A DNA stretch of 34,569 bases from Syntrophaceae bacterium. GTDB taxonomy: Bacteria; Desulfobacterota; Syntrophia; Syntrophales; UBA2185. Position 1 is the first letter of the stretch. Each line of letters opens with the position of its first letter. The notes beneath the pieces were generated by a model. It searched no databases, was not told the DNA's origin, and saw only the letters and a list, made by a program, of their open reading frames with translations. The stretch lies in contig PLMX01000167.1 of the NCBI GenBank assembly GCA_003142635.1, positions 1 through 34,569 of the forward strand, written 5' to 3'. Made by a program: the position numbers and the translations under genes. Shown piece by piece: positions 28,586 to 34,569 of the stretch.

Positions 28586-30016
28586 CTACATTGCCTTCAC
28601 AGGGATATCACTATCGATTATCGTCCCGTTACCAAGCTGACCATAGAGATTGTACCCCCACGTCCAGACCGTGCTATCGATCTTCAGAGCAACAGTATCG
28701 TAAACGCCTGCAGCAACGGCCTCCACACCAGACATTCCGATGGGTTGCACAGGGGTAACGCTGCCGGTCGTAGTCCCATTGCCAAGCTGACCCTTACCAT
28801 TACCTCCCCACGTCCAGACCGTGCCATCAGTCTTCATAGCGACAGCGTGGTCGTAGCCTGCGGCTATGCCTATTGCGCCCGTGCCGACCATTCCGCTTAC
28901 CTCCACAGGGCTCCAAACGTCGGTCGTATCTCCATCACCAATCTGACCAACATTATTAAACCCCCATGCCCAGACGGAGCTGCTGAGCGCGTCATTCCGC
29001 AGGGCGACAGTGAATAAGTTGCCTGCGGCGATGGCCATTATGTTAGCCAACCCGGGAACCTCCACAGGTATATAACTGTCGGTCGTAGTTCCGATGCCAA
29101 GCTCACCATTACCGTTATCTCCCCACGTCCAGATAATGCCGCCGCTGCTGTTCATAAGAGCAACTGTATGGTCGTATCCTGCTGCAACGGCTATTACGCT
29201 CGACAGACCGGACGTTCCGCTCACCTGTATAGGAACAGGGCTATCAGTTATACTGTTATTACCAAGCTGACCATGGTTATTATACCCCCACGTCCAGACG
29301 GTACCGTCATTTTTCAGTGCGACAGTGAATCTATAGCCTGCTGCAACGGCTGTCATGCCTGACAGTCCACCCACCTGCGCAGGGGTACGACTATCAAGCC
29401 CAGGCCCGTTACCAAGCTGACCATTACTATTACTTCCCCACGTCCAGACCGTGCCGTCATTCTTCAGGGCAACAGTATGGTCATAGCCTGCTGCAACGGC
29501 TGTCATGCCTGACAGTCCGCCCAGCTGCGCAGGGGTATCACTATCGGTTATCGTCCCGTTACCAAGCTGACCATTGCTATTGTATCCCCACGTCCAGACC
29601 GTGCCGTCGCTCCTGAGGTAAACGGTGTGATATGACGTCGACACCGCACCGCTCCCAAAACCACTGAAGTTGAAACCGCTCCCACTCAGGCCATAGATAG
29701 TGGCATTTCGGTTTATCGGTCCAAAGGTGTATCCTGCGAGTGACGGGGTGATAGTGTATGAGCTGTAGTTCGATACGTCAAAGCTATAATTACCATGACT
29801 ATCTGTAGTCGCGGCCGCTGAACTATCGCCGGAAAGAGTTACCGTTACACCTGAGAGCGGTGAACCGCCTGATGTAATCGTGCCAGAAAGCGTAAATGTC
29901 TCGGAGCTGAACAAGCTGCCACATCCTGAAAGCATAACTATTGTAACCATACTTAATAACAAAACCAACATCGCTACAGAAAACTTCATATGTTCTACCT
30001 TGCTATAATTCTTCAT
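28586..30016 (-). CDS. RCC1-repeat (seven-bladed propeller) lipoprotein
   Basis: This 476-aa exported lipoprotein has a signal ending in the lipobox LSGC, then a carboxypeptidase-regulatory/Ig-like domain (SGTITSGGSPLSGVTVTLSG to about residue 120) and seven RCC1 repeats, each with a W(T/A)WG and a G(Q/E)(L/I)G core. Seven repeats would close a seven-bladed propeller. Bacterial RCC1-like surface proteins are usually binding or adhesion modules. The ATG at 30016 has GGAGG upstream; an ATG 9 codons later is also possible. The repeats are similar at DNA level (a block starting CCCCACGTCCAGA recurs), so recent duplication is likely. No partner is adjacent. Confidence 0.88.
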   Translation of the reverse strand: MKNYSKVEHMKFSVAMLVLLLSMVTIVMLSGCGSLFSSETFTLSGTITSGGSPLSGVTVTLSGDSSAAATTDSHGNYSFDVSNYSSYTITPSLAGYTFGPINRNATIYGLSGSGFNFSGFGSGAVSTSYHTVYLRSDGTVWTWGYNSNGQLGNGTITDSDTPAQLGGLSGMTAVAAGYDHTVALKNDGTVWTWGSNSNGQLGNGPGLDSRTPAQVGGLSGMTAVAAGYRFTVALKNDGTVWTWGYNNHGQLGNNSITDSPVPIQVSGTSGLSSVIAVAAGYDHTVALMNSSGGIIWTWGDNGNGELGIGTTTDSYIPVEVPGLANIMAIAAGNLFTVALRNDALSSSVWAWGFNNVGQIGDGDTTDVWSPVEVSGMVGTGAIGIAAGYDHAVAMKTDGTVWTWGGNGKGQLGNGTTTGSVTPVQPIGMSGVEAVAAGVYDTVALKIDSTVWTWGYNLYGQLGNGTIIDSDIPVKAM

Positions 30017-30193
30017 ACTACCTCCGGCAGGATTCAATCTTCTTTAAGTAACATAAATTTTCTAATGTAATTGAAACGTTTTTGATTACCTTACCTTACC
30101 TTAATTCGCCAATCTCGCGCAGTCGTAGATGTCCTCATAGTGTTCATCTTCTGCCACTTCTTTCGCTTCCTGTCCATGAATTTATGACTTTTC

Positions 30194-31126: not shown

Positions 31127-31233
31127 TTTTCAGTGTTTTCTGTTATTTCTGAGGAAAAACTGGGATAGTGTCTGACTTGTTAATTGAATTCGGTGGCGAG
31201 CGCAAACATCTTCGCTTGCTGCGGAGAGCTTCA

Positions 31234-32118
31234 ATGATTTGCAGTATGGAAGTTATAAACATAAAACATCATTATTTGAAGATAGTAAGAGTAGTGAATA
31301 TTACCATAGGGTTATTACTACTTGCATCTCTGGTTTTTTTTGCGAGGAATATCATAACGGTGGTTCAAAAAAGAGATATGAAACCTCTTTCAACTGCCCC
31401 GATCGAATCCAGGAAACATGAAAATAAAAGTATTCAGGAATATGAAGCGCTCCTTCAAATCAACCCGTTTGGCGTATCTGTTGGTTCGGTGAAACAAGGT
31501 CGTTCCCAGGGAGATCAAGCAGCATTTTCTAATATTAGGCTCGTGGGAACAATTTCTGGAAGTGATAAAAACGGCTATGCCGTTTTTATTGGCGGCGATG
31601 GAAAACAATCAATGCTCAAGACAGGCGAGACCGTGTTCGGGTTGGGAGAGCTTAAAAGGGTTGAAAAAACCAGCGTATTCATTCTTCATAAAAATGGGAA
31701 ATTGGTGAAAATTAGTATGCACGATCAGCTAACCTTAAGCGATATGCAAGCTTCCAAGGGTACTACAGGAATAGCCGGACCAGTGCAATCTATCGGAAAG
31801 GGGGAGTATATCATAGACCAAAAGGCAACGCTGGTTGCTTTGGATAATCCTGCTCAGATCATGACGGATGCAAAGCTTATCCCTAACATGGTAAAGGGTA
31901 AGCTAGATGGGTTTATTCTGCAGGGAATAAGAAAAGACGGTTTCTACGATAACTTGGGTATGAAAAATGGCGATATCCTTTTGCGGATCAATGACTCCAA
32001 CATTTCAAATCCCGAAAATGCACTTCAGACCTTTATGGCCTTGAAGGGGATGGATAAAGTACAATTAGATATAATCAGAGACGGTAACAGGGTGACTCTC
32101 AATTATCAAATCAGATGA
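31234..32118 (+). CDS. gspC: Type II secretion protein GspC
   Basis: This 294-aa inner-membrane protein of the T2SS has a short cytoplasmic N-terminus, one membrane helix (IGLLLLASLVFFA), a periplasmic HR domain (SNIRLVGTISGSDKNGYAVFIGGDG, about residues 95-170) that docks to the secretin N0 domain, and a C-terminal PDZ domain (LDGFILQGIRKDGFYDNLGMKNGDILLRIND to the end). The ATG at 31234 is chosen for its GGAGAG site; a GTG at 31168 and an ATG at 31246 are less likely. gspD begins 16 nt after its stop. Confidence 0.92.
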   Translation: MICSMEVINIKHHYLKIVRVVNITIGLLLLASLVFFARNIITVVQKRDMKPLSTAPIESRKHENKSIQEYEALLQINPFGVSVGSVKQGRSQGDQAAFSNIRLVGTISGSDKNGYAVFIGGDGKQSMLKTGETVFGLGELKRVEKTSVFILHKNGKLVKISMHDQLTLSDMQASKGTTGIAGPVQSIGKGEYIIDQKATLVALDNPAQIMTDAKLIPNMVKGKLDGFILQGIRKDGFYDNLGMKNGDILLRINDSNISNPENALQTFMALKGMDKVQLDIIRDGNRVTLNYQIR

Positions 32119-32134
32119 GGAAAACCAGTAAACT

Positions 32135-34183
32135 ATGTATAACATAATAGTAAAAAGAGTCTCAATGCTAATTTTTTTGGTGTGTGTTTTGACAATGTCA
32201 GCCGATACCATGGCGGCATTTAAGACGGACAGCATGGTCACATTCAACTTTGTGGATGTCGATCTGCCAGTCATCACAAAATTTGTGAGTGAAATAACCC
32301 ACAAAAATTTCATTCTCGATGAGCGTGTAAAAGGAAAGATAACGATAATTACGCCTACGAAACTGAGTGTATCGGATACATTCAATCTCTTTACTGCCGT
32401 TCTGGAAATGAAAGGGTTTACTGTTGTTCCTTTAGGTGTGGACGCTTATTCCATTATTCCCACTTCGGAGGCAAAACAGAAAGGGTTAAAATTTAATAAA
32501 GAGAAGCAGCCCGTCAATGCAAGCTATGCAGCCCAATTGATTCCGCTGAAATATGTTTCAGCGGCAGAAGTAATGAAATTAGTCCAGCCAATCATATCGA
32601 AAGATGGATACATATCGGTATTCGGTCCGGGTAATCTGCTCTTAGTTATTGACTCAGGTGTAAATATTGCAAATGTCGTGTCAGTCATCGATGCTATTGA
32701 CAAGCCATCAGAGAACAGGGGATCGATTAACATCTATTTCCTTGAAAACGCCGATGCAACTGAACTGTCAAAGGTGCTGGAAACACTAACTAAGTCGGCG
32801 CAGGCACAGCCTCAGAAGCAGCCCTCAGTTGCCTCAGCATTTGAGTCCGTGAGCGGGATTACTATAACGCCGGACAAGGCCTCCAATGCCCTCATTATTG
32901 TTGCATCCCCTTCCGACTATCAGAATATACTGCCGATCATCAAAAAACTGGATAAGCGGCGTCGACAGGTATTTGTTGAGGTCATGATTGCAGAGATATC
33001 TTTGAATAGACTCATTCAACTTGGCTCGCAATGGCGGGCTGCTGTACAGTCGGGTGGGGCGCCGGTAGTTGTTGCAGGTGTCGGAAGCGTAGACACAAGC
33101 ACAATCAGCTCTATCATCACCGGTCTGACAGGTCTTACCATCGGAGGCCTGGGCAATTACTATACCATACCGCAGACCATGATTTCTGGGGCGACATCGA
33201 ATGTGACAGCTCCCGGTATTGCGGTACTCTTTAGTTTGAGTGATTTCAGGGATGCCCTAAACGTCCTTTCAACTCCGCAGATATTAACATCAGACAACAA
33301 AGAGGCGCAAATTCTCGTTGGCCAGAATGTTCCTTTTATTGCATCAAGACAACAGGACATCACGACTGCGAATACAGTGCTTAACAACATCACTAGGCAG
33401 GATGTAGGCATTACGCTGAAAATCACCCCCCAGATTTCTGAGAGTGAATACGTAAAGATGGATATATATCAGGAGGTCTCTGCACTCGTCGGGGGGCAGT
33501 CGGATAATATTTTGACCACTGTCGGTCCAACGATTACCAAGAGATCAACGAAAACATCGGTGGTCGTCAGAGATAAACAAACTGTCGTAATCGGTGGGCT
33601 CATGCAGGATAGCGAAGAAGAGACAACGACGAAGGTACCTTTCTTCGGTGACATTCCCCTGATCGGATGGCTTTTTAAATACAAGACAACCCAGAAGACT
33701 AAGACCAACCTCTTAGTATTTCTGACACCTCATATAGTTACAGAAGCAGCTCACTTGGGCCAACTTTCCAGAGATAAGCTAAATGATTTTACCCAAAAAG
33801 AGAAACTTTATATTGAAGGGGAGCTGATCGTGACATTCAAAAGCGGTGTGACAGAGGAAGCGGCGAAGACTATTGTTAATCGTCAGAAGGCTGCGATTAT
33901 AAAAATTGTCAAGGAGAATACATATCGCATTAAGCTAAAAGAGGGAATGAGCCTGGAAGAGGCCGCCAATCAATTCTCAGCGTTGCCGGAGGTACAGAAG
34001 GCCGAACCTATTAACCTTATTCAAATGCCCGGTAGTGAAGGTGAATTGTCGCGACCCTCTGTTCCTTCAAGTGCCACGAGTGAAACTTCTGTAAAGCGAG
34101 ATGCCCAACCTGCTGCAGTTTTACCTGTTGAGGAGAAAAACCTTAAGGGTCAAACTAAAGACCTTGCTCCTGCCGCTCCGTGA
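32135..34183 (+). CDS. gspD: Type II secretin GspD with a propeptide-like C-terminal extension
   Basis: This 682-aa outer-membrane secretin has a signal peptide (to about residue 27), N0 (VTFNFVDVDLPVITKFVSE, 35-100), three N1-N3 repeats (115-335, with AAQLIPLKYVSAAEVMKL and GSINIYFLENADATELSKVL) and the secretin barrel domain ending VPFFGDIPLIGWLFKYKT and NLLVFLTPHIV (about 350-545). Residues 558-625 are unusual: GELIVTFKSGVTEEAAKTIV, then YRIKLKEGMSLEEAANQFSALPEVQKAEP, resembling the inhibitor-like propeptide of fervidolysin-type subtilases. A Pro/Ser/Ala-rich linker follows to a TGA. The next in-frame codons encode a SPOR domain. No pilotin-type S-domain is obvious. Confidence 0.92.
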   Translation: MYNIIVKRVSMLIFLVCVLTMSADTMAAFKTDSMVTFNFVDVDLPVITKFVSEITHKNFILDERVKGKITIITPTKLSVSDTFNLFTAVLEMKGFTVVPLGVDAYSIIPTSEAKQKGLKFNKEKQPVNASYAAQLIPLKYVSAAEVMKLVQPIISKDGYISVFGPGNLLLVIDSGVNIANVVSVIDAIDKPSENRGSINIYFLENADATELSKVLETLTKSAQAQPQKQPSVASAFESVSGITITPDKASNALIIVASPSDYQNILPIIKKLDKRRRQVFVEVMIAEISLNRLIQLGSQWRAAVQSGGAPVVVAGVGSVDTSTISSIITGLTGLTIGGLGNYYTIPQTMISGATSNVTAPGIAVLFSLSDFRDALNVLSTPQILTSDNKEAQILVGQNVPFIASRQQDITTANTVLNNITRQDVGITLKITPQISESEYVKMDIYQEVSALVGGQSDNILTTVGPTITKRSTKTSVVVRDKQTVVIGGLMQDSEEETTTKVPFFGDIPLIGWLFKYKTTQKTKTNLLVFLTPHIVTEAAHLGQLSRDKLNDFTQKEKLYIEGELIVTFKSGVTEEAAKTIVNRQKAAIIKIVKENTYRIKLKEGMSLEEAANQFSALPEVQKAEPINLIQMPGSEGELSRPSVPSSATSETSVKRDAQPAAVLPVEEKNLKGQTKDLAPAAP

Positions 34184-34477
34184 AAGGTTACAAAAAATGG
34201 CAAATATGCCATTCAGATAAAAGCTTATCCTGAAGCAGAAAAGAAAGATGCGATGGTGCTTGCAGAGGATCTGAGAAAAACACAACCAGATGTTTACATG
34301 GAAAGAGTTAAGGCTCGGAAACGGGGTGACTGGTATAGAATATTGATCGGACATTTTGCCGGTATTGAAGTTGCTGCAATTATTATGAAGGAAAGGAAAA
34401 TTTTAGAAGCGCATCCGGGAAGTTTTGTCCAACTGAAATCTGAAGGACGATCATCAAAGCTGAAACCGGAAGAATAA
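34184..34477 (+). CDS. SPOR-domain segment in frame with gspD beyond a TGA
   Basis: The 97 codons directly after the gspD TGA (34181-34183) stay open in the same frame and encode a SPOR-like fold: GKYAIQIKAYPEAEKKDAMVLAEDLRK, then VYMERVKARKRGDWYRILIGHFAG. SPOR domains bind denuded peptidoglycan glycans. The first ATG in frame (34253) would delete the first strand of the domain, and no start codon with a ribosome binding site precedes it, so independent translation is doubtful. It looks like the tail of a longer GspD that a stop codon has cut off, or that is made by read-through. A small hairpin (34197-34212) sits 13 nt after the TGA. Confidence 0.7.
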   Translation, partial: KVTKNGKYAIQIKAYPEAEKKDAMVLAEDLRKTQPDVYMERVKARKRGDWYRILIGHFAGIEVAAIIMKERKILEAHPGSFVQLKSEGRSSKLKPEE

Positions 34478-34507
34478 GAAAGGTGTGAACAAAACCTGGA
34501 ATCCGAT

Positions 34508-34569
34508 ATGGCTGACAGTTGTCAAGAAAAAAATAGTTCTCCTGTCCTTTTTTTAAGGGTTAAACTTTT
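34508..34569 (+). CDS. Possible start of the next gsp-operon gene (partial)
   Basis: An ATG at 34508 opens a frame that runs to the window end (20 codons, starting MADSCQEKNSSPVLF). A second candidate is a GTG at 34486 with GAAAGG upstream whose product (NKTWNPIWLTVVKKK then hydrophobic) looks like a membrane-protein start but stops in a T-run near 34554. Too little is visible to choose. In T2SS operons the gene after gspD is usually gspE. Confidence 0.2.
   Translation, partial: MADSCQEKNSSPVLFLRVKL

Follow-up and report, generated by a model that had tools for sequence, protein, structure and literature searches.

The type II secretin gene gspD of a Syntrophaceae bacterium ends in a TGA, behind which the same frame runs on into a SPOR domain. 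This raises the question of whether the locus is an interrupted fusion gene, a stop codon that is read through or a site of re-initiation, all of which a preliminary description had put forward. The window analyzed here, a stretch of 34,569 nucleotides (PLMX01000167.1), is the entire contig C202 of a metagenome-assembled genome (MAG) of 260 contigs that is 95% complete. The features that bear on the question are as follows.

31168-32118, plus strand: gspC, with T2SSC and PDZ domains (Pfam T2SSC, E 1.4e-8; PDZ_2, E 2.2e-5).
32135-34183, plus strand: gspD, a type II secretin of 682 amino acids ending in TGA (Secretin, E 6.7e-52; Secretin_N, E 2.2e-23; GspD N0, E 3.5e-22).
33791-34009, plus strand: Fervidolysin_NPro-like domain, GspD residues 553-625 (PF22148, E 5.6e-12).
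34031-34180, plus strand: unconserved Pro/Ala/Lys linker, 28% identical to the orthologue in a gap-free alignment.
34181-34183, plus strand: in-frame TGA, facing CCA (Pro) of the orthologue in the codon alignment.
34184-34477, plus strand: frame open past the stop, 97 codons plus TAA (34475-34477), with the SPOR match at 34196-34429.
34197-34212, plus strand: 6-bp hairpin with AATA loop, missing in the orthologue and of unsupported role.
34498-34569, plus strand: end of a mobile-element-like dispersed repeat between gspCD and gspE, within which the contig ends.

With N0, Secretin_N and Secretin domains and a place in a gsp operon, the 682-residue product is a GspD-type secretin. Outside the operon, the window encodes on the minus strand (28586-30037) a 483-aa protein made up mostly of repeats of the type VALKNDGTVWTWGxNxxGQLGNG, resembling RCC1 repeats.

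The codons behind the stop were confirmed to encode a recognizable SPOR domain, as evidenced by a match to PF05036 with an E-value of 4.7e-9 and 36.9 bits against a cut-off of 21. A search within the genome itself placed SPOR at the same position (E 1.9e-8). Modeling of the tail with AlphaFold2 (pLDDT 79) yielded the order beta-alpha-beta-beta-alpha-beta, and the best matches of this model in the protein data bank were RlpA SPOR domains with Z-scores of 9.5 and 9.3, the former at a root mean square deviation of 2.4 over 75 residues aligned; DedD, CwlC and DamX were among the next. Phmmer found no match between the tail and PDB sequences. The profile score above cut-off and the RNP-like fold identify the tail as a SPOR domain. 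It retains residues that match those known to bind glycan in SPOR domains (PMC6895207), namely a Gln in strand 1 and Trp-x-Arg in strand 3, which suggests that the tail would be able to bind peptidoglycan. The nearest relatives found outside GspD are free SPOR membrane proteins from the same family with about 50% identity, and these are a plausible source of the tail. One of them (G000:C136) is encoded in the same genome and its SPOR domain is about 50% identical to the tail, but it is a separate gene with a transmembrane segment in another gene cluster.

The stop lies, as had been described, in the linker between the two domains. Also borne out was the lack of a usable start codon for the first strand of the SPOR domain. 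Counted from the stop, the first in-frame ATG, GTG or TTG is codon 24, the ATG at 34253. Strand 1 (residues 8-16) lies before it, and an ordinary start codon can therefore not give rise to an intact SPOR domain.

Orthologues were sought in 60 relatives, in 155 genomes of the order, in a phylum sample of 395 genomes and in one scan of genome contigs. Across this set, a close full-length GspD orthologue was found in one genome only, the Syntrophaceae MAG bin_41 (G005:C202, JAFNGM010000202.1). Its gspD (L039 1243-3699) is a single uninterrupted frame of 818 codons with SPOR at residues 727-804 (E 8.5e-9), and the protein is 67% identical over residues 9-779 of the window query. Both genomes share the domain order N0-Secretin_N-Secretin-Fervidolysin_NPro-SPOR and the gspC-gspD neighborhood, with the gspC orthologue in the equivalent position. 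Unlike in the window, there is no stop between linker and SPOR in bin_41, and gspE starts 12 nt further on. The preliminary description had proposed looking for a sense codon in place of the TGA, and the fused orthologue has one: the linker aligns without gaps at the codon level and the TGA faces CCA. Given the poor conservation of the linker, the identity of the codon facing the TGA is less certain than the openness of the frame. The fusion in bin_41 also contradicts the view that this SPOR domain is invariably encoded by a gene of its own that has a separate start. With an intact homolog, a sense codon at the stop and homology in one frame on both sides, the window gene has the marks of a gene interrupted by a nonsense codon.

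More distant GspD orthologues are those of L046 (Desulfobacteraceae), L047 (Thermodesulfovibrionales) and two members of the phylum sample, L072 and L073. They terminate shortly after the Fervidolysin-like region, and a family-derived SPOR profile detected no such domain in the fetched stretches of these four. Another relative (G027:C184) shows 62% identity, but its contig ends after residue 108, which makes it uninformative on the tail. Possible further SPOR genes with internal stops in relatives were rejected; the cases opened were matches overrunning their own C-terminal stop.

Three other features of these proteins deserve mention. The Fervidolysin_NPro-like domain, which resembles a subtilase propeptide, is found at the GspD C-terminus here (33791-34009) and in several other orthologues, being present in GspD of bin_41, L046, L047 and L072. 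Two Secretin_N matches were obtained in the GspD proteins of bin_41 (L039 1243-3699) and the window genome, compared with three in L046, L047 and L072; the lineage with the SPOR gain thus seems to have lost one ring-forming module. Finally, the N-terminus of bin_41 GspD (L039 1243-1400) reads ...ILDSRFRGNDIYV... and looks as if a dispersed repeat had been translated; the true start may therefore be located downstream of the predicted one.

Taken with the SPOR-less distant orthologues, the fusion in bin_41 makes for a simplest history in which the common ancestor of the two Syntrophaceae-like genomes gained SPOR and one of its descendants subsequently acquired the stop. Direct observations are the unbroken fusion of a relative, the sense codon at the site, the outgroups without SPOR and the preserved SPOR frame. 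We consider it highly probable that the tail was gained by fusion in this lineage and later cut by the TGA, whether as a real nonsense mutation or as an error of assembly, and of the options first proposed this is the one that the comparison supports. In the common ancestor with bin_41, the GspD C-terminus would have been extended by fusion to a SPOR domain similar to the family's free SPOR proteins. The TGA of the window genome would now end translation in the flexible linker, giving a secretin of 682 residues that keeps its Fervidolysin-like domain and closely resembles the orthologues that have no SPOR. The tail would remain untranslated save for any basal UGA leakage of the cell. We infer that the stop is recent and that the truncated GspD still works.

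The pairwise omega (NG86) of the post-stop part is 0.35, compared with 0.06-0.11 in the Fervidolysin and secretin parts. Relaxed selection was nevertheless rejected as a reading of this value, because SPOR pairs of the family often show 0.1-0.4 and because the branch test is not significant. In this codon model, the SPOR omega is 0.36 on the window branch versus 0.29 in the background (2 delta lnL 0.2), and a fully neutral window branch is mildly disfavored (2 delta lnL 4.5). The secretin core, which is certainly translated, gives 2 delta lnL of 3.4 in the same neutrality test; the power of the branch test is therefore low, as the core rejects neutrality no better than SPOR does. Polarized amino-acid changes, 10 on the window branch and 6 on the other, are too few for use. 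The SPOR codons past the stop carry no second lesion. Since the lineages split, the tail has probably been kept from decaying most of the time. The lack of detectable relaxation is compatible with a stop that is young, with an error of assembly and with continued low-level translation alike, and does not separate these.

An assembly or sequencing error in the MAG, with the real gene an intact fusion, is the second form that our preferred explanation can take, and we regard it as possible though rather unlikely. It would account for a SPOR domain without detectable relaxation, and the contig does break 92 nt downstream, in a repeat. On the other hand, no frameshift or other lesion was found in gspC, in gspD or in the genes read on the gspE side. 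Similarity to the dispersed repeat starts at 34498, twenty bases past the end of the SPOR frame, and 70-nt matches to it were obtained from other genomes within the order, frequently at the ends of contigs. The gspE gene is located on contig C4, the end of which bears the same 12-mer in opposite orientation. The repeat at the contig end and the shared 12-mer at the gspE-side end of C4 indicate that the operon is split here by the repeat. In the surroundings of one repeat copy, which were read through, there was no transposase. On C4, gspE and the subsequent genes are intact in the stretch read; a TAA apparently inside gspE is the gene's own end. This shows that the junction has been disturbed and not that the secretion system has been lost.

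Programmed or otherwise functional read-through of the UGA, which would give a minority of secretins a peptidoglycan-binding SPOR tail, is improbable. UGA is the leakiest stop codon in bacteria, which counts in its favor, as do the intact frame with a SPOR domain lacking detectable relaxation and the position of the break between domains. However, programmed read-through implies a stop and a stimulatory element that are conserved in orthologues, while the only close orthologue of full length carries CCA at this place and its fusion is uninterrupted. Searches of the 155 genomes of the order and of the 395-genome phylum sample yielded no second species with a stop at this site. A hairpin (ATGGCA-AATA-TGCCAT) does lie 13 nt past the TGA as had been reported, but its suggested role in favoring read-through did not hold up. 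It is missing in the orthologue, its folding energy is a weak -7.1 kcal/mol and comparable perfect 6-bp hairpins occur in 3.6% of the 40-nt stretches of the window, so that it is unremarkable by chance. The surrounding region folds no better than shuffled sequences (z -0.85). Still less probable is a use of UGA leakage as a dosage device, in which a few subunits per secretin ring would carry the SPOR tail and tether the channel to peptidoglycan while most would end earlier.

Selenocysteine at the UGA would be another form of special decoding. The genome encodes a full-length SelB (G000:C28:6978-8870, 390 bits against the family cut-off of 242), so the organism probably makes selenoproteins, and UGA is probably decoded as selenocysteine somewhere in this genome. 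At this site we give it hardly any credence. The bSECIS model (PMC13188914) asks for a G in the first two loop positions, a distance of 16-37 nt from the UGA and a minimum free energy of at most -7.5 kcal/mol; no hairpin in the allowed range has such a G or reaches this energy. An Rfam scan gave no match, and the aligned residue is a Pro in an unconserved linker and not Cys.

Equally far-fetched is a separate production of SPOR by re-initiation past the TGA. The AAAGG just past the stop has suitable spacing to the ATG at 34197, but this only well-placed Shine-Dalgarno/ATG pair opens another frame that stops after 7 codons, which also speaks against the decayed re-initiation considered earlier. 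A fragment starting at the in-frame ATG 34253, behind strand 1, would in addition have no signal peptide. A reassignment of TGA to sense is ruled out, as genes of the window genome such as gspC end in TGA. Overall, the most likely origin of the TGA is a recent nonsense mutation of the ordinary kind, or else an assembly error, and not special decoding.

The fusion has a partial counterpart in Legionella LspD, a T2SS secretin with a SPOR domain that is N-terminal and precedes N0 (PMC6617341, PMC9239104). According to a paper from 2022, SPOR on a secretin was known only from the N-terminus of that protein (PMC9239104). While both are T2SS secretins bearing SPOR, the domain described here is C-terminal behind a Fervidolysin-like domain, and in the window it is cut off by the TGA. 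No description of a secretin with this C-terminal arrangement was found in the literature searched. GspA/GspB (ExeAB) and OutB anchor secretins to peptidoglycan (PMC9239104) and thus share with the fusion the proposed purpose of fixing the secretin to the cell wall, but they are separate proteins, whereas here the binding domain is located within the secretin gene. For the GspB family (PF16537), both the window genome and bin_41 gave hits below the cut-off only. Another member of the phylum (L083 919-3396, minus strand) encodes a GspD with an AMIN-like match at the C-terminus, another possible wall-binding tail, so C-terminal additions of this kind may have arisen more than once.

From the domain content, it is reasonable to suppose that SPOR may anchor the intact bin_41 secretin to peptidoglycan. 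There is probably nothing unusual about the stop as such. The fusion extends the possible modes of wall anchoring of T2SS secretins by a C-terminal SPOR domain, and the pair of genomes, one with an intact and one with a cut gene, offers a natural comparison for the dispensability of this putative anchor.
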